DNA from: Chelatococcus reniformis
GTDB lineage: Bacteria > Pseudomonadota > Alphaproteobacteria > Rhizobiales > Beijerinckiaceae
Direction of reading: 5' to 3'
Length of the DNA: 64,000 bases
Assembly: GCF_014640075.1 (NCBI RefSeq)
Contig: NZ_BMGG01000003.1
Coordinates: 433,036 to 497,035 of the forward strand
Made by a program: the position numbers and the translations under genes. Shown piece by piece: positions 8,146 through 53,578 of this stretch. Below the pieces are notes generated by a model, which saw only the letters and a program-made list of their open reading frames with translations, was not told where the DNA came from and made no database searches. Position 1 is the first letter of the stretch, and the number at the start of each line of letters is the position of its first letter.

Positions 8146-8976
8146 ATGGCAGAGAGCGTCGCGCAGAAATCCTCACTCATGGCCGGCAAGCGCGGCCTCG
8201 TCATGGGAGTGGCCAACAACCGTTCGATCGCCTGGGGCATCGCCAAGGCAGCGCGCCAGCACGGGGCGGACGTGGCCCTGACCTACCAGGGTGACGCGCT
8301 GAAGAAGCGGGTCGAGCCGTTGGCGGCGGAGCTCGGCGCGAGCGTTGTCGGCCACTGCGACGTCACCGACGGGCCGAGCATCGACGCCGTCTTTGCCGAG
8401 GTGGAGCGGCTGTGGGGCGGTCTCGATTTTCTGGTGCACGCCATCGCCTTTTCGGACAAGGACCAGCTCACCGGACGCTACCTGGAGACGACCGAACAGA
8501 ACTTCTCGCGCAGCATGCTGATCTCCTGCTACTCGCTCACTGCGGTGACCCAGCGGGCGGAGCGGCTGATGCGGGGCGGTGGCTCGATCCTGACGCTGAC
8601 CTACTACGGCGCCGAGAAATGGATGCCCCACTACAATGTCATGGGCGTCGCCAAGGCCGCCCTCGAGGCGAGCGTGCGCTATCTCGCCGCCGACCTGGGG
8701 CCGCAGAACATCCGCGTCAACGCCATCTCGGCCGGCCCGGTGAAGACGCTGGCCGCGTCCGGCATCGGCGACTTCCGCTACATCCTTAAGTGGAACGAGT
8801 ATAATTCGCCGCTGCGGCGATCGGTGACGGTCGAAGAGGTCGGCGAGGCGGCAACCTATCTGCTGTCCGATATGTCGCGCGGCGTCACCGGCGAGGTGCA
8901 CCACGTGGACGCCGGCTACCACGTCGTCGGCATGAAGAACCCGGACGCGCCCGACATCGTGCTCGGCAAGGAGTGA
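8146..8976 (+). CDS. fabI: Enoyl-[acyl-carrier-protein] reductase (NADH) FabI
   Basis: 276-residue FabI, which reduces trans-2-enoyl-ACP in each fatty-acid elongation cycle in the cytoplasm. Seen: the FabI-type cofactor motif GVANNRSIAWGIA at about 21-33, the substrate segment HAIAFSDKDQLTGRYLET, the active-site TYYGAEKWMPHYNVMGVAK carrying the Tyr-(X)6-Lys pair, and SAGPVKTLAASGI. Length and C-terminus are normal. It is followed with a four-base overlap by a histidine phosphatase gene, the usual arrangement beside aroC in Rhizobiales, although aroC here is 8.5 kb further on. Confidence 0.96.
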   Translation: MAESVAQKSSLMAGKRGLVMGVANNRSIAWGIAKAARQHGADVALTYQGDALKKRVEPLAAELGASVVGHCDVTDGPSIDAVFAEVERLWGGLDFLVHAIAFSDKDQLTGRYLETTEQNFSRSMLISCYSLTAVTQRAERLMRGGGSILTLTYYGAEKWMPHYNVMGVAKAALEASVRYLAADLGPQNIRVNAISAGPVKTLAASGIGDFRYILKWNEYNSPLRRSVTVEEVGEAATYLLSDMSRGVTGEVHHVDAGYHVVGMKNPDAPDIVLGKE

Positions 8977-9596
8977 GCGGGCCCGAGACCGGCGCCGGGA
9001 CGGCGGCAGCGCCGACCCTCTACTTCGTGCGCCACGGCGAGACCGATTGGAACGCGGCAGGTCGCCTGCAGGGCCGGCGCGACACCGAGCTCAACGCCAC
9101 CGGCCGTCGCCAGGCCGAGGCGAGCGGACGCGCTCTGCGCGCGCTGATCGCCGCTCCGGCGGAGCTTGCCTACGTGTCGAGCCCACTGCGGCGTGCGCGC
9201 GCCACCATGGAGGGGCTGCGTCACGCGATCGGCCTCGCCCCCGCCGCCTACGCGCTCGACGAGCGGCTGATGGAGCTCTCCTTCGGGCGGTGGGAAGGGT
9301 TAACCTGGCGCGAGATCCGCACGGGCCAGCCGCGCCTGCACGGCGAGCGGAAGGCCCGTATCTGGGACTTCGTGCCCCCGGGCGGCGAGAGCTATGCCGA
9401 CCTCGCCGCCCGTCTGACCCCCTTCGTGCGGGACTTGGTCCGTGACACCGTCATCGTCTCGCACGGTGGCGTCGCCCGCGCCCTGGCCGCAGGGCTCGCC
9501 GGCGTCGCAACGGCGGAGGCCGTCAAGCTCGACATCTGGCAGGGTCGCGTCCTCGTCTTCGCCGGCGGCCGGCTGACCTGGAGCGAAGGTCTCTAG
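8973..9596 (+). CDS. Histidine phosphatase family protein (phosphoglycerate-mutase-like)
   Basis: 207-residue cytoplasmic enzyme of the histidine phosphatase superfamily. It has the catalytic RHGETDWN at about 15-22, the second conserved Arg region SSPLRRARATMEG, a catalytic Glu in MELSFGRWEGL and the C-terminal VSHGGVARALAAG with the second catalytic His. Such proteins are annotated as phosphoglycerate mutase or cobalamin/alpha-ribazole phosphatase; the substrate cannot be read from sequence. GTG start overlaps the fabI stop, so it is likely co-transcribed and translationally coupled. The R2 repeat begins at its stop codon. Confidence 0.92.
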   Translation: MSGPETGAGTAAAPTLYFVRHGETDWNAAGRLQGRRDTELNATGRRQAEASGRALRALIAAPAELAYVSSPLRRARATMEGLRHAIGLAPAAYALDERLMELSFGRWEGLTWREIRTGQPRLHGERKARIWDFVPPGGESYADLAARLTPFVRDLVRDTVIVSHGGVARALAAGLAGVATAEAVKLDIWQGRVLVFAGGRLTWSEGL

Positions 9597-9697
9597 AGCG
9601 TTTTCGAGCGAAGTGGACGCCGGTTCGCGTGAAGAAAACGCGACAAATCAAACAGATAGAGCATTTCGGCGATTCGAAGACGCGAAAATGCTCCAGG
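9595..9697. repeat. Modular palindromic repeat, copy R2 (GAGCGTTTTCGAGCGAA type)
   Basis: Starts inside the stop of the phosphatase gene. The left hairpin pairs GCGTTTTCGAGCGAA with TTCGCGTGAAGAAAACGC around TGGACGCCGG. The right half runs from AGAGCATTTCG to CGAAAATGCTC. Copy R3 is nearly identical over the first 80 bases. From memory, elements beginning this way are abundant in intergenic DNA of Rhizobiales genomes; the sequence itself shows two copies here. Confidence 0.88.
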
Positions 9698-10293: not shown

Positions 10294-13200
10294 ATGAAGC
10301 ACGCGACCGACACGACGCTCACCGCCGCCTATACGCCCTCCATCGCCATCCCCCGCGCGCCCCGGCCCGTATTGACCGCGCCCGTGCTGGACGGTCCCGT
10401 CCGCCCGGACCTGAACCGCGACGAGGTGCTGGGAGAAGTCTTCCAGTCCACCGTCCAGGGACGCGGCTACCGCGTCGCCTACATCAGCGGCGACAAGGTG
10501 TGGACCTACGCCCAGGTGCAGGCGGAGACCGACGCGATCGCGCGCGGGCTCGTCGCCCAGGGCATCGGGCCCGGCCACATCGTCGGGCTGTGGATGGCGC
10601 GCGGCGTCGAGTTGCTGATGGCGCAAATCGCCATCACCAAGTCCGGTGCGGCCTGGCTGCCGTTCGACGCGGACGCCCCGGTCGAGCGCATCTCGGTCTG
10701 CCTCGCCGACGCCCAAGCCAAGGGCATCCTCACCAGCGCGGCCTTCATCGAGCGTGCCGAGGGCACCGGCGTTGCCGTGTGGACGAGCGCCGCGCTGTTA
10801 GAACGTGCGGCGCCCGGCGCGCTGCCCAACCCGCGCGCGCGGGGCCTGACCGCCGACAGTCCGGCTTATCTGATCTACACCTCCGGCTCGACGGGGACGC
10901 CCAAGGGCATCGTCATCAGCCACCGCAACATCTGCCACTTCCTGCGCTCGGCCAACGAGGTCTACGGCTTCGCCTCCGACGACGTGGTGTTCCAGGGCGC
11001 CTCCGTCGCCTTCGACCTCTCCATGGAAGAGATCTGGGTGCCGTATCTGGTCGGAGCGACGCTGTTCGTCGCGACGCCCGAGATGATCGGCGACGTCGAA
11101 CGCCTGCCCGACCTGATGATCGATGCCGGCGTCACCGTGCTCGACACCGTGCCGACCCTGCTCGCCATGCTGCCACGCGACATCCCATCGCTGCGAATCA
11201 TCCTGCTGGGCGGCGAAGCCCTGCCTTCGCCACTGGTGGCGCGCTGGGCCCGGCCCGGCCGGCGCATCTTCAACACCTACGGGCCGACCGAGGCGACCGT
11301 CGTCGCGACGGTGGCGGAGGTGCTCCCCGGCGAGGCGGTGACGATCGGCCGACCGATCCCCAACTACACCTGCTACATCGCGGACGACGACCTCAATCCC
11401 GTGGCCGACGGCCAGCAGGGCGAACTGCTCATCGGCGGTCCCGGCGTCGCCGCCGGCTATCTCGGCCGGCCCGAGCTCACGGCGCAGAAATTCGTCGCCA
11501 ACCCCTTCGCCGATCAGACCGGCATCGACCCGGTGCTGTACCGCTCGGGCGACGCCGTCAGCCTGGACGGGGCCGGCAACATCGTTTTCCACGGCCGCAT
11601 CGACGACCAGGTCAAGATCCGCGGCTTTCGCGTCGAACTGGGGGAGATCGAGGCCAAGCTGGCCGACTTTCCTCACGTCGCCCACGTCGCCGTGGTGCTG
11701 CGCCAGGACAACGGCCTCGACCGGCTGGTGGCCTTCCTGGTGCCCGAACCCGGCCAGACGATCGACCGGCTGGCGCTGCGCCTGGGGCTGCGCGACCGGC
11801 TGCCGTCCTACATGGTGCCGGCCCATTTCGAGCTGGTGGACACGCTGCCCCGGCTGACCTCCGGCAAGATCGACCGCAAGGTGCTCAAGGCCGCGTCCCT
11901 GACCGCCGCCGAGGCGCTAGCGGAGGACGAGCCGCGCACGCCGGCCGAGGCCGCCCTGCTCGCCGCGGCCAAGTTCGTATTCCCGGGCCAGGCCATCCCC
12001 TTCGATGCCGACTTCTTCATGGACTTGGGCGGTCATTCGCTGCTCGCCGCCCGCTTCGTCTCGGCCGTGCGCGAAGACCATGCCTATGCCGGCATCACCC
12101 TTCAGGACGTCTACGGCGCCCGCACCCTGCGCGCCATGGCCGCCAAGCTGGAAGCTGCCGGTCGCGGCCAGGGGCCGCGCGATCTCTCCTTCACACCGCC
12201 GCCGCTGCTGCGCCGCGTCTTGTGCGGTGTGGGTCAGGCTGTGGCGCTGCCCTTCATCATCGCGCTGATGACGGCGCAGTGGCTCGGCATCTTCATCGGT
12301 TACATGCTGCTGTCCGGCGGCGAAGCCGGCATCGGTGCCGAGATCGCGGCTCTGCTCGGCCTCTACCTCGTCATCAACCTCGTCACCATCGCGATTTCCA
12401 TCGTCGCCAAATGGCTCATCATCGGCCGCACCAAGCCGGGCCGCTATCCGCTCTGGGGCACCTATTACTTCCGCTGGTGGCTGACGACGCGGCTGATCGG
12501 GCTCGCCCACATCAAGTGGATGCAGAACTCGCCGCTGATCGTCTGGTACCTCAGGGCGCTGGGAGCGCGCATCGGCAAGGACACGATCCTGGCCGAGATT
12601 GAATGCGGTGCCTTCGACCTGCTCACCATCGGCGACGGCGTGTGCGTCGGCGGCAAGGCCAAGTTCGCGACCGCGGAGGTCGTCGGCAACGAGCTCGTCA
12701 TCAGCGCGATCAGCATCGGCAAGGACGCCTACGTCGGCACGTCGTGCGTGCTCGAAGGCGGTGTCGCCGTCGGTGAAGGCGCCGAGCTTGCGGATCTGAC
12801 CGCCGTCGCCGCCGGCACCGCGGTCGGCCCCCGCCAGACGTGGGACGGCTCGCCCGCCCGGCATGTCGGCACGGTCCCCGATAGCGATCTGCCGCCGCGG
12901 CCGACAGTCGGTCCGGTCAAACGGACGCTCCAGAACTGCGCCTACGTGGCTGGCGGCCTGCTGATCCCGCCGCTCGGTCTGCTGCCGATCTTCCCGGCCT
13001 TCTTCCTGTTCGACCGCCTGGACGACGTCCTCAGCGGCCCCCTGGGCATCAGCTACCTCTATTACCTGCCCGTGCTCGCCTGGCCGACCGCCTTCTGCCT
13101 AGTGCTCGCCACCATCGCCTTCATCGTGGCGGCGCGCTGGGTCGTGCTGCCGCGCGTGTCTGAGGGCATCTATTCGGTCCACAGCTGGTTCTACGTGCGC

Positions 13201-14379
13201 AAGTGGGTGGTCTCGCTCGCCACCGAGGTGACGCTCGAGACCCTCTCGACCCTCTACGCCACCGTCTACATGCGCGGCTGGTACCGCCTGATGGGCGCCA
13301 AGATCGGCAAGGACGCCGAGATCTCCACCAATCTGTCGGGCCGCTACGACCTGGTCGAGATCGGCGAGAAGAACTTCATCGCCGACGAGGTGGTGCTCGG
13401 CGACGAGGACATCCGCCAGGGCTGGATGATCCTGAAACGGGTCAAGACAGGAGCGCGCGTCTTCGTCGGCAACGATGCCGTCGTGCCGCCCGGTACGCGC
13501 ATTCCCGCGGATGCGTTGATCGGCATCAAGTCGAAGCCGCCGGCCAACGACGCGATGTCATCGGGCGATACCTGGTTCGGCTCCCCGCCGATCAAGCTGC
13601 CGGTGCGCCAGACGTTCGGCGACGTCGCCGCCAACTGGACCTATGAGCCGTCGCGCCTGCGGCGCCTGGGCCGGGCCGTGTTCGAAGCCTTCAACCTGTC
13701 GCTGCCCACCATGCTGTTCATCAGCTTCGGCACCCTCGCGGTCGAGCTGCTGGCGCCGGCGATCCTGGCGGGCGATGTCGCGACCCTGGTGCCGGGGTTC
13801 ATCGGCCTCAGCGTCGCCATCTCGATGGCCATGACGGCGGTGGTCATCGGCCTGAAATGGTTGATGATGGGCGCCTACAAGCCCACCATGAAGCCCATGT
13901 GGACGTTCTGGTCGCTGCGCACCGAGGCGACCGCTGTGCTCTACTGGGGCCTGACCGGCAAGGTGCTGCTCGAGCAGTTGCGCGGCACCCCGTACTTGCC
14001 ATGGGTTCTGCGGCTGTTCGGCGCCAAGTTCGGCAAGGGCGTGTTCATGGATACGACCGACATCACCGAGTTCGACTGCGTCGAGGTTGGCGACTTCGTC
14101 GCCATCAACGCCGTCGCGGCGCTGCAGACCCACCTCTACGAGGATCGCCTGATGAAGGTCGGGCGGGTCTCGATCGGCAACGGCGTGACCATCGGTGCCG
14201 GCGCGACGGTGCTCTACGATACCAAGGTCGGCCCGTTCGCCCGCATCGGGCCGCTGACCATCGTCATGAAGGGCGAGTCGATCCCCGGTCACAGCGAATG
14301 GGCCGGCGCCCCGGCCGAGCCCGTCGCGCACGGGACGGCGGCAGCGGTGGTGACGCCGCAGCTCAAATCGGCGGCCTGA
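10294..14379 (+). CDS. Pls/PosA-family nonribosomal peptide synthetase with membrane and hexapeptide-repeat C-terminus
   Basis: 1361-residue single-module synthetase without condensation or thioesterase domain. Residues 30-545 are an adenylation domain: A3 YTSGSTGTPKG (about 195-205), A5 NTYGPTEAT, A7 YRSGD, A8 GRIDDQVKIRGFRVELGEIE, A10 LTSGKIDRK. A carrier domain follows with LGGHSLL, phosphopantetheine serine S582. From about 640 come membrane segments alternating with three left-handed beta-helix (hexapeptide acyltransferase-like) blocks near 770-870, 1010-1110 and 1250-1350. This is the layout of epsilon-poly-lysine synthetase (Pls) and PosA (TIGR02353), which polymerise one basic amino acid at the membrane. 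A hand alignment to GrsA gives pocket residues D241, L242, E245 and D284, then L, G, T, V, V; the two acidic residues favour a cationic substrate (inference). ATG 10294 follows a GAGG. Confidence 0.93.
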   Translation: MKHATDTTLTAAYTPSIAIPRAPRPVLTAPVLDGPVRPDLNRDEVLGEVFQSTVQGRGYRVAYISGDKVWTYAQVQAETDAIARGLVAQGIGPGHIVGLWMARGVELLMAQIAITKSGAAWLPFDADAPVERISVCLADAQAKGILTSAAFIERAEGTGVAVWTSAALLERAAPGALPNPRARGLTADSPAYLIYTSGSTGTPKGIVISHRNICHFLRSANEVYGFASDDVVFQGASVAFDLSMEEIWVPYLVGATLFVATPEMIGDVERLPDLMIDAGVTVLDTVPTLLAMLPRDIPSLRIILLGGEALPSPLVARWARPGRRIFNTYGPTEATVVATVAEVLPGEAVTIGRPIPNYTCYIADDDLNPVADGQQGELLIGGPGVAAGYLGRPELTAQKFVANPFADQTGIDPVLYRSGDAVSLDGAGNIVFHGRIDDQVKIRGFRVELGEIEAKLADFPHVAHVAVVLRQDNGLDRLVAFLVPEPGQTIDRLALRLGLRDRLPSYMVPAHFELVDTLPRLTSGKIDRKVLKAASLTAAEALAEDEPRTPAEAALLAAAKFVFPGQAIPFDADFFMDLGGHSLLAARFVSAVREDHAYAGITLQDVYGARTLRAMAAKLEAAGRGQGPRDLSFTPPPLLRRVLCGVGQAVALPFIIALMTAQWLGIFIGYMLLSGGEAGIGAEIAALLGLYLVINLVTIAISIVAKWLIIGRTKPGRYPLWGTYYFRWWLTTRLIGLAHIKWMQNSPLIVWYLRALGARIGKDTILAEIECGAFDLLTIGDGVCVGGKAKFATAEVVGNELVISAISIGKDAYVGTSCVLEGGVAVGEGAELADLTAVAAGTAVGPRQTWDGSPARHVGTVPDSDLPPRPTVGPVKRTLQNCAYVAGGLLIPPLGLLPIFPAFFLFDRLDDVLSGPLGISYLYYLPVLAWPTAFCLVLATIAFIVAARWVVLPRVSEGIYSVHSWFYVRKWVVSLATEVTLETLSTLYATVYMRGWYRLMGAKIGKDAEISTNLSGRYDLVEIGEKNFIADEVVLGDEDIRQGWMILKRVKTGARVFVGNDAVVPPGTRIPADALIGIKSKPPANDAMSSGDTWFGSPPIKLPVRQTFGDVAANWTYEPSRLRRLGRAVFEAFNLSLPTMLFISFGTLAVELLAPAILAGDVATLVPGFIGLSVAISMAMTAVVIGLKWLMMGAYKPTMKPMWTFWSLRTEATAVLYWGLTGKVLLEQLRGTPYLPWVLRLFGAKFGKGVFMDTTDITEFDCVEVGDFVAINAVAALQTHLYEDRLMKVGRVSIGNGVTIGAGATVLYDTKVGPFARIGPLTIVMKGESIPGHSEWAGAPAEPVAHGTAAAVVTPQLKSAA

Positions 14380-14520: not shown

Positions 14521-14570
14521 CTCGATACTCGGCCGTGCTCAACCGCGGTCGACGGTCGGGAGGATCGCCG

Positions 14571-14855
14571 ATGCGGCCGGCCTGTGTATCCGTCGTTCTG
14601 CTGATGATGGCGCCCGCGGCGCTCGCCTGCGATAGCAGCTCCCCTTGCCTCTACAGCAAGGAGGGCAAGTTCCTCGGCCACCTCAACAAGAATCCCTACG
14701 ACCCGGATTCGGTGGCCAACCCGCACGGGCGCTACGGCAGCCCCTATTCCCCCGACAGCATCAACAATCCCAATGGCCGCTATGGCAGCCCCTACTCCGC
14801 CGACAGCGCCAACAATCCCTACGCCACCGGTGGAATCGTGATCCGTGGGCGTTGA
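14571..14855 (+). CDS. Small secreted protein with tandem NPxGRYGSPYS repeats
   Basis: 94-residue exported protein. Residues 1-19 are a signal peptide (VVLLMMAPAALA|C), possibly lipid-modified or disulphide-linked because Cys follows at once and a second Cys is at SSPC. The mature part contains roughly two and a half tandem copies of a 16-residue unit, N-P-x-G-R-Y-G-S-P-Y-S-x-D-S-x-N, rich in Tyr, Gly, Ser and Asn. Similar repeats occur in small proteins of many bacteria with no known role. GGGAGGA ends 6 bases before the ATG. It lies 190 bases downstream of the Pls-type synthetase on the same strand; a functional link is only a possibility. Confidence 0.8.
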   Translation: MRPACVSVVLLMMAPAALACDSSSPCLYSKEGKFLGHLNKNPYDPDSVANPHGRYGSPYSPDSINNPNGRYGSPYSADSANNPYATGGIVIRGR

Positions 14856-14871: not shown

Positions 14872-14976
14872 TGGAGCGTTTTCGAGCGAAGTGGACGCCG
14901 GTTCGCGTGAAGAAAACACGGAAAATCAAACAGATAGAGCATTTCGGTGGTTCGAAGAAACACGGAAATGCGCTAG
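14872..14976. repeat. Modular palindromic repeat, copy R3
   Basis: Nearly identical to R2 across the left hairpin (GGAGCGTTTTCGAGCGAAG ... GAAGAAAACAC) and the linker CAAACAGATAGAGCATTTCGG, but the right hairpin has drifted (ends GGAAATGCGCTAG rather than AAAATGCTCCAG). It begins 17 bases after the stop of the small secreted repeat protein. Confidence 0.88.
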
Positions 14977-22855: not shown

Positions 22856-23785
22856 CTACATGCCCATCAACGCCTCGACGTGGCCGGCGGTCGACTTGGC
22901 GAGTGCATCGAGGTCGTAGCCTCCCTCGAGCATCGAGACGATGCGGCCCTTGCACTGGCTGTCGGCGATCGCCATCAGCCGCAGGGTGGCCCAGGCGAAA
23001 TCGGCTTCGGTGAGGTTGAGGTTGGCCAGCGGATCACGCCAGTGGGCGTCGAAGCCGGCCGAAATGATGATCAGATCCGCCTTGAACGCCTCGAGGCGCG
23101 GCAGGATGGCGAAGTCGAACGCCTCGCGGAAGCTGCGGCTGTTGGTGCCCGCCGGCAACGGCACGTTGACTATGGTGTCGTGCTCGCCCTGCTCCGACAT
23201 GGCGCCCGTGCCGGGGTAGAGCGGCATCTCGTGGGTCGAGCAGTACAGCACGTCCGGATCGGACCAGAAGATGTCCTGCGTGCCGTTGCCATGGTGCACG
23301 TCCCAATCGACGATGGCGACGCGGCCGGCGCCGTGCGCGGTGCGGGCGTGACGGGCGGCGATGGCCACGTTGTTGAAGAGGCAGAAACCCATGGCCTGTG
23401 CGCGCTCGGCGTGGTGTCCCGGTGGCCGCGTGGCACAGAAGGCGTTGCCGACCCGCCCCGCCATGACCTCGTCGGTCGCCCGCACCGCGGCGCCGACGCC
23501 CCGCAGCGCCGCCTCGAAGCTGCCCCGTGACAACGCCGTGTCGCCGTCGATGTGGACGATGCCGGAGCGTGGCGTCGCCTGCTCGATAGCCTCCACGTAG
23601 CGCTCGGGATGAACCCGGTGGATCGCTTCGCGGCTGCCGAGCGGCGCCTGCTCGCGCAGCAGCAGCGCGAACTTCTCCTGCTCCAGGGCGCGCTCGACCG
23701 CGCGCAGCCGCTCGGCGCACTCCGGATGGCCGAGCGGCGTTTCGTGGTCCAGGCAGGCGGGATGCGTCAGATAAAGCGTGCTCAC
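22856..23785 (-). CDS. Histone deacetylase family protein (zinc amidohydrolase, acetylpolyamine/HDAH type)
   Basis: 309-residue arginase/deacetylase-fold hydrolase. Seen: RPPGHHAERAQAMGFCLFNN with the catalytic His pair, the zinc motif DWDVHHGNGTQDIFW and SAGFDAHWRDPLANL with the second zinc Asp. Bacterial members remove acetyl groups from polyamines or other small amides (acetylpolyamine amidohydrolase, HDAH); histones are not the substrate. GTG at 23785 gives the conserved start STLYLTHPACLDHETPLGHP with GAGG upstream; the frame extends 28 codons further without family similarity. In other Rhizobiales this gene is, from memory, often next to xseB; here it is 14 kb away. Confidence 0.93.
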   Translation of the reverse strand: MSTLYLTHPACLDHETPLGHPECAERLRAVERALEQEKFALLLREQAPLGSREAIHRVHPERYVEAIEQATPRSGIVHIDGDTALSRGSFEAALRGVGAAVRATDEVMAGRVGNAFCATRPPGHHAERAQAMGFCLFNNVAIAARHARTAHGAGRVAIVDWDVHHGNGTQDIFWSDPDVLYCSTHEMPLYPGTGAMSEQGEHDTIVNVPLPAGTNSRSFREAFDFAILPRLEAFKADLIIISAGFDAHWRDPLANLNLTEADFAWATLRLMAIADSQCKGRIVSMLEGGYDLDALAKSTAGHVEALMGM

Positions 23786-23878
23786 AGCGGCCTCGGCGTG
23801 GCGGTCGGCCCGCGGCAATGCCCCGCGCCGAAAGCCGGAACTGTTACAATGGCGCACGCCGATGTCCATGCGCGGCAG

Positions 23879-51601: not shown

Positions 51602-53578
51602 TCACATCCCGTAGGTCGGGGTCAGGCTGTTGGCGCGCCGGAGGTTGCGGTAGCGCGCCATGGCCCAGAGCGGGAAGAACTTCGCATAGCCGTGGTAGCG
51701 CAGGTAGAAGACGCGGGGAAAGCCGGTGGCCGTATGGAACGGCTCGTCCCAGAAGCCGTCGTCGCCCTGGGTCGCGGCAAGATAGGCGACGCCGCGCGCC
51801 ACCGACTCGTGCTCTGCGGCACCGGCGGCCATGAGGCCGAGCAGCGCCCAAGCGGTCTGCGAGGCGGTGGAGGGAGCGCGTTCGTAGCCATCATAGGCGA
51901 GCTGGTAGCTCTCGCCGCCCTCCCCCCAGCCGCCATCCTCGTTCTGAACGCTGGCCAGCCAGGCGACGGCGCGGCTCACCGGCGGCGATTGCAGGCCGTG
52001 GCCGACGGCACCCAGGGCGCAGAGCGCCGACCAGGTGCCGTAGACGTAGTTCATGCCCCAGCGGCCGAACCAGCTGCCGTCCTTCTCCTGGCCTGCGATC
52101 AGGGCGTCGATGCCGCGGGCCAGCACGGCGCTGGTCTCGCGCGTCTCGCCGAGTTGCGCCAGCATCGAGACGCAGCGCGCCGTGACGTCGGCCGTCGGTG
52201 GATCGAGCAGGGCGCCGTGGTCGGCGAAGGGGATGTTGTTGAGGTAGTGGTAGCTGTTGTCGGCATCGAAGGCAGCCCAGCCGCCGTCGCTGCTCTGCAG
52301 CCCCTCGACCCATTCGCGGGCGCGGGCAACCGCCTCGGCGTCATCACCGGCCGTGGCGCCCGCCCGTTCGCGCGCGGCACGATCCATGGCCATCACCACC
52401 ACGGCGGTGTCATCGAGATCGGGATAGTGCGGGTTGGCGTATTGGAAGGCCCAACCGCCCGGCCGCACGTCGGGGCGCTGCACCGCCCAGTCACCCTTGA
52501 CGTCGAGCACCTGGCGCGGCTTCAGCCAGGCGAGACCGGCCCTTGCCCGGGCCGCGCTCGCCGCATCCCCGACCTCGAGCAGCGCGTGCGAAGCCAGCGC
52601 CGTATCCCAGACCGGGGAGAGGCACGGCTGGCAATAGGCCTCGTCCTTGCCGATGACGAGCAGATGCTCGATCGAGCGGCGCGCCGCGACGAGGTGGGGA
52701 TGATCGGCCCGATAGCCGAGTGCATCGAACATCAGGACCGCATTGGCCATCGCCGGATAGATCGCGCCGAGCCCCTCCTCGTCGTTGAGACGCTCCGTCA
52801 CGAAAGCGACCGCGCCGGCGATGGCGCGCTGCCGCGGCCGGGCCGGCATATGCGGCTCGGCCAGCTTCAGCACCCTGTCGATGGCACCGAAGAGCTTGAT
52901 CCAGCCCCAGGCCTGGTGCGCGCCGCCCGGCCAGTCGCGCACCTGGTCCGGCGGCACCGTGAACAGCTCCGCCACGCCGATGCCGCGCCGGTTGACCGGC
53001 TTGGGCTTGAGCGCCTGCAGCACGAGCAGCGGCACCAGCACGGTGCGAGCCCAATAGGACACCTTGTCGAGGTGGAAGGGAAACCAGCGCGGCAGGAGGG
53101 TGATCTCCACCGGCATGGTCGGCGTGGCGGCCCAGGGGACGACGCCGTAGAGCGCCAGCAGGAAGCGCGTGAACACGTTGCTGCGCCCGGCCCCGCCGTT
53201 CGCCAGGATGGCCTCCCGGGCGCGGCGCATGTGGGGTGCGTCGACATCGTCGCCAATCATCTTCAGAGCGAAATAGGCCTTGACGCTGGCGCTCATGTCG
53301 AACGGGCCGGCATGGACTAGGGGCCAGCCGCCATGCGCGCCCTGCACGCGCCTGAGGTAGACGCCGATCAGTCGCTCCAGCTCCAGATCGTCCGGCTCAC
53401 CGCGGAAATGCCGCAGCAGCACGTATTCGGCGGGGATCGTGGCATCCGCCTCGAGCTCGAAGCACCAGTGGCCGTCCTCACGCTGAAGCGCGGTGAGCGC
53501 TTCCGTCGCCCGCCTGATATGGCGCTCCAGCCCGTCCAGGGTGGGGGCACTGCGCGCATGATCGAAAGCAATGTTCAC
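51602..53578 (-). CDS. shc: Squalene-hopene cyclase Shc (HpnF)
   Basis: 658-residue monotopic membrane enzyme that cyclises squalene to hopene and hopanol. Seen: the catalytic acid motif DLDDTAV (DXDDTA) and several QW repeats (GSWFGRWGMNYVYGTWSALC; EDGGWGEGGESY; DGFWDE). The frame continues to GTG 53617, but GTG 53578 (NIAFDHARS) follows AAGGGTG and is preferred; the extra 13 residues look non-conserved. From 53617 the gap to hpnE is only 3 bases. Part of hpnA-B-C-D-E-shc-G. Confidence 0.95.
   Translation of the reverse strand: MNIAFDHARSAPTLDGLERHIRRATEALTALQREDGHWCFELEADATIPAEYVLLRHFRGEPDDLELERLIGVYLRRVQGAHGGWPLVHAGPFDMSASVKAYFALKMIGDDVDAPHMRRAREAILANGGAGRSNVFTRFLLALYGVVPWAATPTMPVEITLLPRWFPFHLDKVSYWARTVLVPLLVLQALKPKPVNRRGIGVAELFTVPPDQVRDWPGGAHQAWGWIKLFGAIDRVLKLAEPHMPARPRQRAIAGAVAFVTERLNDEEGLGAIYPAMANAVLMFDALGYRADHPHLVAARRSIEHLLVIGKDEAYCQPCLSPVWDTALASHALLEVGDAASAARARAGLAWLKPRQVLDVKGDWAVQRPDVRPGGWAFQYANPHYPDLDDTAVVVMAMDRAARERAGATAGDDAEAVARAREWVEGLQSSDGGWAAFDADNSYHYLNNIPFADHGALLDPPTADVTARCVSMLAQLGETRETSAVLARGIDALIAGQEKDGSWFGRWGMNYVYGTWSALCALGAVGHGLQSPPVSRAVAWLASVQNEDGGWGEGGESYQLAYDGYERAPSTASQTAWALLGLMAAGAAEHESVARGVAYLAATQGDDGFWDEPFHTATGFPRVFYLRYHGYAKFFPLWAMARYRNLRRANSLTPTYGM

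Follow-up and report, generated by a model that had tools for sequence, protein, structure and literature searches.

The window analysed here is a stretch of 64,000 nucleotides from Chelatococcus reniformis (contig NZ_BMGG01000003.1, positions 433,036 to 497,035), and the gene under discussion encodes a synthetase of the Pls/PosA type. The open reading frame (ORF) at 10294-14379 on the plus strand is free of internal stops and translates into 1361 amino acids (P0001). In Pfam, the protein consists of AMP-binding (residues 50-390), AMP-binding_C (451-525), PP-binding (564-617) and a single Hexapep stretch (1292-1322); neither a condensation nor a thioesterase family is in the Pfam list. Residues 648-1341 match the Pls/PosA family (NCBIfam TIGR02353) with 594.7 bits against a curated cut-off of 423.1, and this is the only match above the cut-off in the genome of C. 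reniformis, which also has three matches above cut-off to the phosphopantetheinyl transferase family. The main parts of the gene are:

10294-14379, plus strand: Pls/PosA-type synthetase gene, 1361 residues (P0001; from translation and TIGR02353)
10441-11868, plus strand: adenylation domain, residues 50-525 (Pfam; nearest structures PosA 8g95-8g98, by sequence and by model fold)
11983-12144, plus strand: carrier domain, residues 564-617, with S582 (Pfam; serine in all 120 aligned rows, the window protein counted)
12235-14316, plus strand: membrane-embedded polymerising half, residues 648-1341 (TIGR02353 and AlphaFold2 model)

The synthetase is a clear member of the Pls/PosA family, and its architecture is ordinary for this known kind of enzyme. 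A sequence-only reading of the window had described the same layout, with one adenylation domain, one carrier domain at S582, a half made of membrane segments and hexapeptide repeats, and no condensation or thioesterase domain. Pfam, TIGR02353 and AlphaFold2 bear this out.

The specificity code of the adenylation domain was read from an alignment with the sequence of the PosA crystal structure 8g95. It is DLEDLGTVVK, formed by D241, L242, E245, D284, L304, G306, T328, V336 and V337, with K525 taken from the conserved tail as the tenth letter. The same script, applied to the Acinetobacter baumannii gene as a control, returned DMEHNGTVSK, the published PosA code (PMC10522769). The pocket letters that the sequence-only reading had placed by hand alignment are thus confirmed. 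The residues at the first four code positions are:

11014-11028, plus strand: D241, L242 and E245 (code positions 1-3), aligned to PosA D217, M218 and E221
11143-11145, plus strand: D284 (code position 4), aligned to PosA H260; 113 of the 120 aligned rows read DLED, the window protein being one of the 120 rows

The closest characterised relative is PosA itself, the delta-poly-L-ornithine synthetase of A. baumannii (PMC10522769; PDB 8g95-8g98). Its whole architecture is alike, and the A. baumannii gene product is 49.5% identical to the window protein in the adenylation domain and 38.8% in the C-terminal half. Among solved structures, residues 20-440 find their best sequence match in the PosA adenylation domain 8g95 (409.5 bits), whereas 7wew, the adenylation domain of the epsilon-poly-L-lysine synthetase Pls of Streptomyces albulus, scores 210.3 bits. 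Pls is alike in family layout and adenylation fold, but lysine enzymes have Ala at code position 2 (PMC10522769), where the window protein has Leu. In the AlphaFold2 model of residues 25-639 (mean predicted local distance difference test score, pLDDT, 85.8), PosA structures also rank first by fold, with a root-mean-square deviation of 2.2 at 48% identity.

The Asp at position 1 and the Glu at position 3, which are the hallmark of the family and anchor PosA as well, are present as D241 and E245. In PosA, E221 binds the side-chain amine of the substrate, and its mutation abolished activity (PMC10522769). Because E245 aligns with this essential residue, the substrate is probably a basic amino acid. 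The sequence-only reading had considered Glu and Asp to be both at key positions. This holds for E245, but the PosA counterpart of D284, H260, makes no substrate contact in the crystal structures, and PosA relies on S313, the mutation of which cost 183-fold and where the window protein has V337 (PMC10522769). An acid at position 4 is found in the ornithine domain of bacitracin synthetase (PMC10522769); the DLED pocket has acids at both positions 3 and 4. The position of PosA M218 has been proposed to set the chain length of the substrate, with Ala for lysine and Phe for 2,3-diaminopropionate (Dap) or 2,4-diaminobutyrate (Dab) (PMC10522769). L242 is neither, and resembles M218 in bulk. Overall, the code differs from that of PosA at positions 2, 4, 5 and 9, and agrees with DLEDIGTV(T/V/I)K, which Patel and Gulick (2023, PMC10522769) described as a unique signature found among Archaea, Rhizobia, Methylobacterium and others. 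The window gene belongs to this group (DLED at positions 1-4, GTV at 6-8, T/V/I at 9, K at 10), with Leu rather than the reported Ile at position 5.

A search for relatives with the same pocket had been suggested by the sequence-only reading. All 80 named relatives carry DLED at positions 1-4 and end in VVK. They are mostly from Methylobacterium, but also from Microvirga, Camelimonas, Chelatococcus, Methylocella, Rhodoblastus, Alsobacter and others; the highest identity, 71%, is to Chelatococcus albus. Within the family of C. reniformis, 136 of 199 genomes, from 33 of 43 genera (hand count), have a synthetase of this kind above cut-off. Codes were read for 30 of the loci behind these 136 genomes; 28 of the 30 read DLED...VVK, and the other two DFEALG(S/T)VTK (DFE type). 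Locus L116 was masked over the pocket and gives no code. Some other DLED members have Ser at position 7, and DLED copies occur on plasmids in Azospirillum and Rhizobium. In a draw across the whole class, 10 of 385 genomes were above cut-off; these 10 include the genome of the window and three others from the same family. Two class relatives from another alphaproteobacterial family (L121 and L122) have DAESIGTVIK, which is lysine-like by the position-2 rule.

A polycation had been expected to be an unusual product here, and this view finds no support. Besides the family count, both the DLED pocket (2023) and such clusters (2021) are in print: the latter were reported in almost all Methylobacterium and Methylorubrum genomes studied (PMC8561711). 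A non-alpha poly-amino acid (NAPAA)-type gene has been described as consisting of an adenylation domain, a peptidyl carrier domain and a Pls/PosA-like domain (PMC13291983), and the reported Methylobacterium clusters are therefore very probably the same genes as the DLED synthetases; the accessible text on those clusters mentions neither a pocket nor a substrate nor a location on the chromosome.

Two trees place the DLED branch next to PosA. In a quick tree of 44 rows (28 of the 80 named relatives, 5 sequences from other genomes, 10 plasmid copies and the window), the DLED clade of 32 rows is sister to A. baumannii PosA with an SH-aLRT (Shimodaira-Hasegawa-like approximate likelihood ratio test) support of 100. 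A careful tree of 20 hand-chosen rows, 12 of them DLED, gives the same relation with bootstrap and SH-aLRT values of 100/100, and rejects the alternative grouping of PosA with Sphingomonas and L115 (approximately unbiased test, p-AU 2.58e-06). In the quick tree, the plasmid copies from Azospirillum fall together with the window and Chelatococcus (SH-aLRT 93), and Camelimonas stands apart from Chelatococcus in both trees. A purely vertical history is contradicted by these two placements, which suggest transfer or tree error alongside mainly vertical descent.

The supply of possible substrates was surveyed with the dat, ectB and sbnA families, which stand for Dab and Dap synthesis, in 60 genomes of the window's family. 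They are above cut-off in 1, 0 and 1 of the 60, respectively, with one near miss (ectB in genome G020, 1.5 bits under the cut-off). By hand count, any of them is above cut-off in only one (G042) of the 41 synthetase-bearing genomes among the 60. C. reniformis itself reaches at most 168.5, 173.8 and 230.9 bits, where the cut-offs are 401.6, 552.2 and 349.95. The near absence of these enzymes favours ornithine, or lysine or arginine. A Dab transaminase gene adjoins two of five DFE-type plasmid loci, L154 (Streptomyces), which also has an aspartate kinase gene, and L155 (Skermanella); both are probable poly-Dab clusters. Close relatives of these transaminases were not found at the 80 named DLED loci (flanks of up to 10 kb, of variable length) or in the window, L029 and L016 having distant aminotransferases only. 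The sister relation to PosA, the Leu at position 2 and the supply pattern are three hints that point to ornithine, or else to a different basic amino acid of universal occurrence. From the list of basic side chains proposed earlier (Lys, Orn, Dab, Dap), the basic character is probable through E245, and Dab and Dap have become less likely. The chances that ornithine itself is the substrate seem about even.

The C-terminal half was modelled confidently with AlphaFold2 from residue 641 to 1361 (mean pLDDT 86.0, predicted template modelling score, pTM, 0.87). Three membrane hairpins alternate with three beta-helix blocks, as is expected of the Pls/PosA family and has been reported for PosA (PMC10522769). 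Pfam alone detects only the third block; the model and the profile alignment show all three, as the sequence-only reading had it. The profiles of the three blocks align with one another without gaps over 112-114 columns. The blocks and the proposed active-site motif are:

12568-12873, plus strand: beta-helix block 1, about residues 759-860 (model and profile alignment)
13297-13599, plus strand: beta-helix block 2, about residues 1002-1102, containing D1031, which all 21 diverse members share (model, profiles and invariant columns)
14023-14304, plus strand: beta-helix block 3, about residues 1244-1337, the proposed catalytic block (model and profile alignment)
14125-14157, plus strand: QTHLYEDRLMK motif, residues 1278-1288, with H1280 (invariant columns and alignment rows)

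In the 21 chosen sequences that underlie the invariant columns and block profiles (hhalign took 20 of them; the structure alignments used 29 sequences each), invariant polar residues cluster in block 3, namely E1259, Q1278, H1280, E1283, K1288, Y1308, K1326 and E1328. Outside this block, they are Q648, R727, D1031, R1127 and E1211. H1280 is the sole invariant histidine of the polymerising half, and is His in all 119 rows, out of 120, that cover it. The corresponding loops in the other two blocks have no conserved histidine, and histidines occur there in single rows only. The motif starts with QTH in 17 of the 21 rows, and with QAH or QSH in four, all of the DFE type. In PosA, it reads QTHLFEDRIMK.

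The best Foldseek matches to the C-terminal model are beta-helix acetyltransferases, with modest scores (best E 8.2e-06). The reading of this half as a condensation domain is ruled out by the absence of such a family in Pfam and by the beta-helix transferase fold. In LacA, H115 is the catalytic residue. H1280 falls in the block-3 loop that corresponds to the LacA loop with H115, according to a gapped profile alignment. According to a structural study, those members of the beta-helix family that have been crystallised all have their catalytic histidine in a loop that protrudes (PMC3046976); the accessible text of the PosA study (PMC10522769) names no catalytic residue for the bond-forming step. 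We propose H1280 as a candidate base of this step, and, because only block 3 keeps an invariant loop histidine, a single active site per chain. The synthetase would resemble LacA/Maa-type acyltransferases in the fold of its blocks and in the histidine in a protruding loop. It differs from them in being a single membrane-embedded chain, in a donor that would be a carrier-bound thioester, and in keeping the invariant histidine in just one of three blocks.

We favour, with a probability of roughly 60%, the reading that the gene encodes a membrane-bound one-module synthetase of the Pls/PosA kind that makes a short cationic homopolymer; that the product is a cationic homopolymer of some sort is likely. 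The adenylation domain would activate a basic amino acid, most likely ornithine, with D241 holding the alpha-amine and E245 the side-chain amine. D284 may assist, in place of the serine used by PosA. As family chemistry suggests, the amino acid would be loaded onto the phosphopantetheine at S582. The C-terminal half, in which one chain is predicted to form a pseudo-trimer of beta-helices over a membrane base, would then attach it to the growing chain through a side-chain amine of that chain, presumably at H1280 in block 3. The product would probably leave the enzyme at the inner membrane, or be passed across it, and act at the cell surface.

Several observations weigh against this reading. With V337 instead of PosA S313, the pocket is not that of PosA, and an Asp at position 4 is absent from the characterised codes quoted in the accessible parts of the surveyed literature. 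In the two trees, the PosA branch is long (1.11 and 1.4) and the composition of PosA is odd, so that its placement leans on the model. The LacA profile alignment is gapped at the histidine loop, H1280 does not match H115 residue to residue, and blocks 1 and 2 fit LacA about equally well. The catalytic histidine of CysE-type enzymes is located elsewhere. No relative of the Dab transaminase was found at the other three of the five DFE-type plasmid loci (L153, L156 and L157), and genome G005 has a DFE-type synthetase (L085) with dat, ectB and sbnA all below cut-off. The supply rule is therefore not strict. Finally, a tested homologue with the odd pocket DSECYGGVTK was active with arginine, and not with the known diamino acids (PMC10522769).

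This last result bears on the strongest alternative, in which E245 and D284 jointly hold the side chain of a larger basic amino acid such as arginine or lysine, and the product is an undescribed polymer or poly-lysine. The two pocket acids at positions 3 and 4 speak for it, as does PosA itself, which has modest activity with lysine and low activity with arginine and histidine (PMC10522769). However, Leu at position 2 should hamper long side chains, given that PosA M218A gains nearly tenfold for lysine (PMC10522769), and a side-chain isopeptide bond would be difficult for arginine. We regard this alternative as doubtful. A poly-Dab or poly-Dap synthetase, working by the same mechanism on a shorter diamino acid, is improbable. 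E245 would suit any side-chain amine, and in another nonribosomal peptide synthetase the code for Dab has Leu as its second letter. Against it, the three supply enzymes surveyed are rare in the family and far below cut-off in C. reniformis. It is Phe at position 2 that has been tied to Dap and Dab (PMC10522769).

The synthetase gene often occupies a conserved site, marked by two upstream genes:

8146-8976, plus strand: fabI-like enoyl-acyl-carrier-protein reductase gene (family match), 5 kb or less upstream of the synthetase in 44 of 68 loci
8973-9596, plus strand: histidine-phosphatase (phosphoglycerate-mutase-like) gene (family match), 5 kb or less upstream of the synthetase in 61 of 68 loci

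Both are within 5 kb in 43 of the 68 named loci that have at least 5 kb of upstream sequence, the remaining 12 of the 80 having less. The fabI-like gene is probably functionally outside the synthetase system. A chorismate synthase gene, 3.1 kb downstream of the synthetase in the window, is within 5 kb downstream in 15 of the 62 named loci with at least 5 kb on this side (18 of the 80 had less). The clustering of neighbours recovered the synthetase itself in 80 of 81 sets. The ratio of nonsynonymous to synonymous substitution rates (dN/dS) is 0.044-0.314 for nine hand-picked synthetase pairs, and 0.025-0.065 for fabI in the five pairs with this gene at both loci. Descent looks mainly vertical under purifying selection. 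It is highly improbable that the enzyme attaches just one basic amino acid to a lipid or to a component of the envelope without making a free polymer. For this reading, the C-terminal half has the fold of a membrane-bound beta-helix transferase, the gene is often kept beside fabI in a housekeeping-like manner, and a gene with a Pls/PosA-like domain was found within a hybrid lipid cluster (PMC13291983). Against it, the characterised members named in PMC10522769 produce homopolymers, and the putative active-site motif is near-identical in PosA.

The absence of an adjacent resistance or export gene, pointed out earlier, is unremarkable, since posA of A. baumannii is also a single-gene operon (PMC10522769). 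A small ORF at 14568-14855, after the synthetase, encodes 95 residues with a signal-peptide-like start and a tandem NPxGRYGSPYSxDS repeat, and has no Pfam match. Together with the synthetase, it is bracketed by an intergenic direct repeat pair (9596-9680 and 14874-14958). The genome contains 123 copies of the 27-base core of this repeat, 58 on one strand and 65 on the other, compared with 0 for a reversed control. A mobile cassette between the repeats is disfavoured by these genome-wide copies and by the site, as judged from its neighbouring genes, being common to relatives; the bracket is probably due to chance. A scan for promoters and terminators found 0 and 4 sites, with 0.7 and 3.2 expected. 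A histone-deacetylase-family gene (PF00850) lies at 22856-23869 on the minus strand. Its relatives are near the synthetase in 16 loci by neighbour clustering, the window counted, and it is taken as part of the shared region. In three plasmid loci, L150 (Rhizobium), L152 (Sphingomonas) and L157 (Shinella), a phosphopantetheinyl transferase gene directly follows the synthetase; relatives of these transferases were not found in the window or at the 80 named loci. The host had been described as hopanoid-making, and indeed a hopene cyclase gene lies within the window (51635-53551, minus strand; G000:C3:484670-486586; TIGR01507, 727.4 bits). Nothing connects it with the synthetase.

In the accessible literature, polycations of the Pls/PosA kind are known mainly as actinomycete antimicrobials, with one gammaproteobacterial and one fungal case. 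No published product, substrate or conserved site of the DLED branch was found in the searched literature, which leaves subscription papers largely outside. The DLED pocket and the near-universal presence of the genes in Methylobacterium were already known. What is added here, by computation, is DLED in every named relative, the family count, the conserved site, the apparent sister relation to PosA, a narrower range of likely substrates and a candidate catalytic residue. The synthetase represents an uncharacterised branch of a known enzyme kind, with both substrate and polymer predicted. A bolder view is that the branch makes an undescribed polymer, the building block being a basic amino acid of universal occurrence that two pocket acids hold. 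Rather than serving as an antibiotic on occasion, this polymer would be an ancient and near-core part of the envelope throughout an alphaproteobacterial family, methylotrophs included. Its gene would have stayed largely at one chromosomal site, with occasional moves to Azospirillum and Rhizobium plasmids. We consider this rather unlikely as a whole.

The invariant histidine motif of block 3 would provide a concrete and falsifiable site for the bond-forming step of Pls/PosA synthetases. The family is common and associated with plants and soil, and the prevalence in it of one pocket type, the purifying selection in the tested pairs and the often fixed site suggest a standing physiological role.

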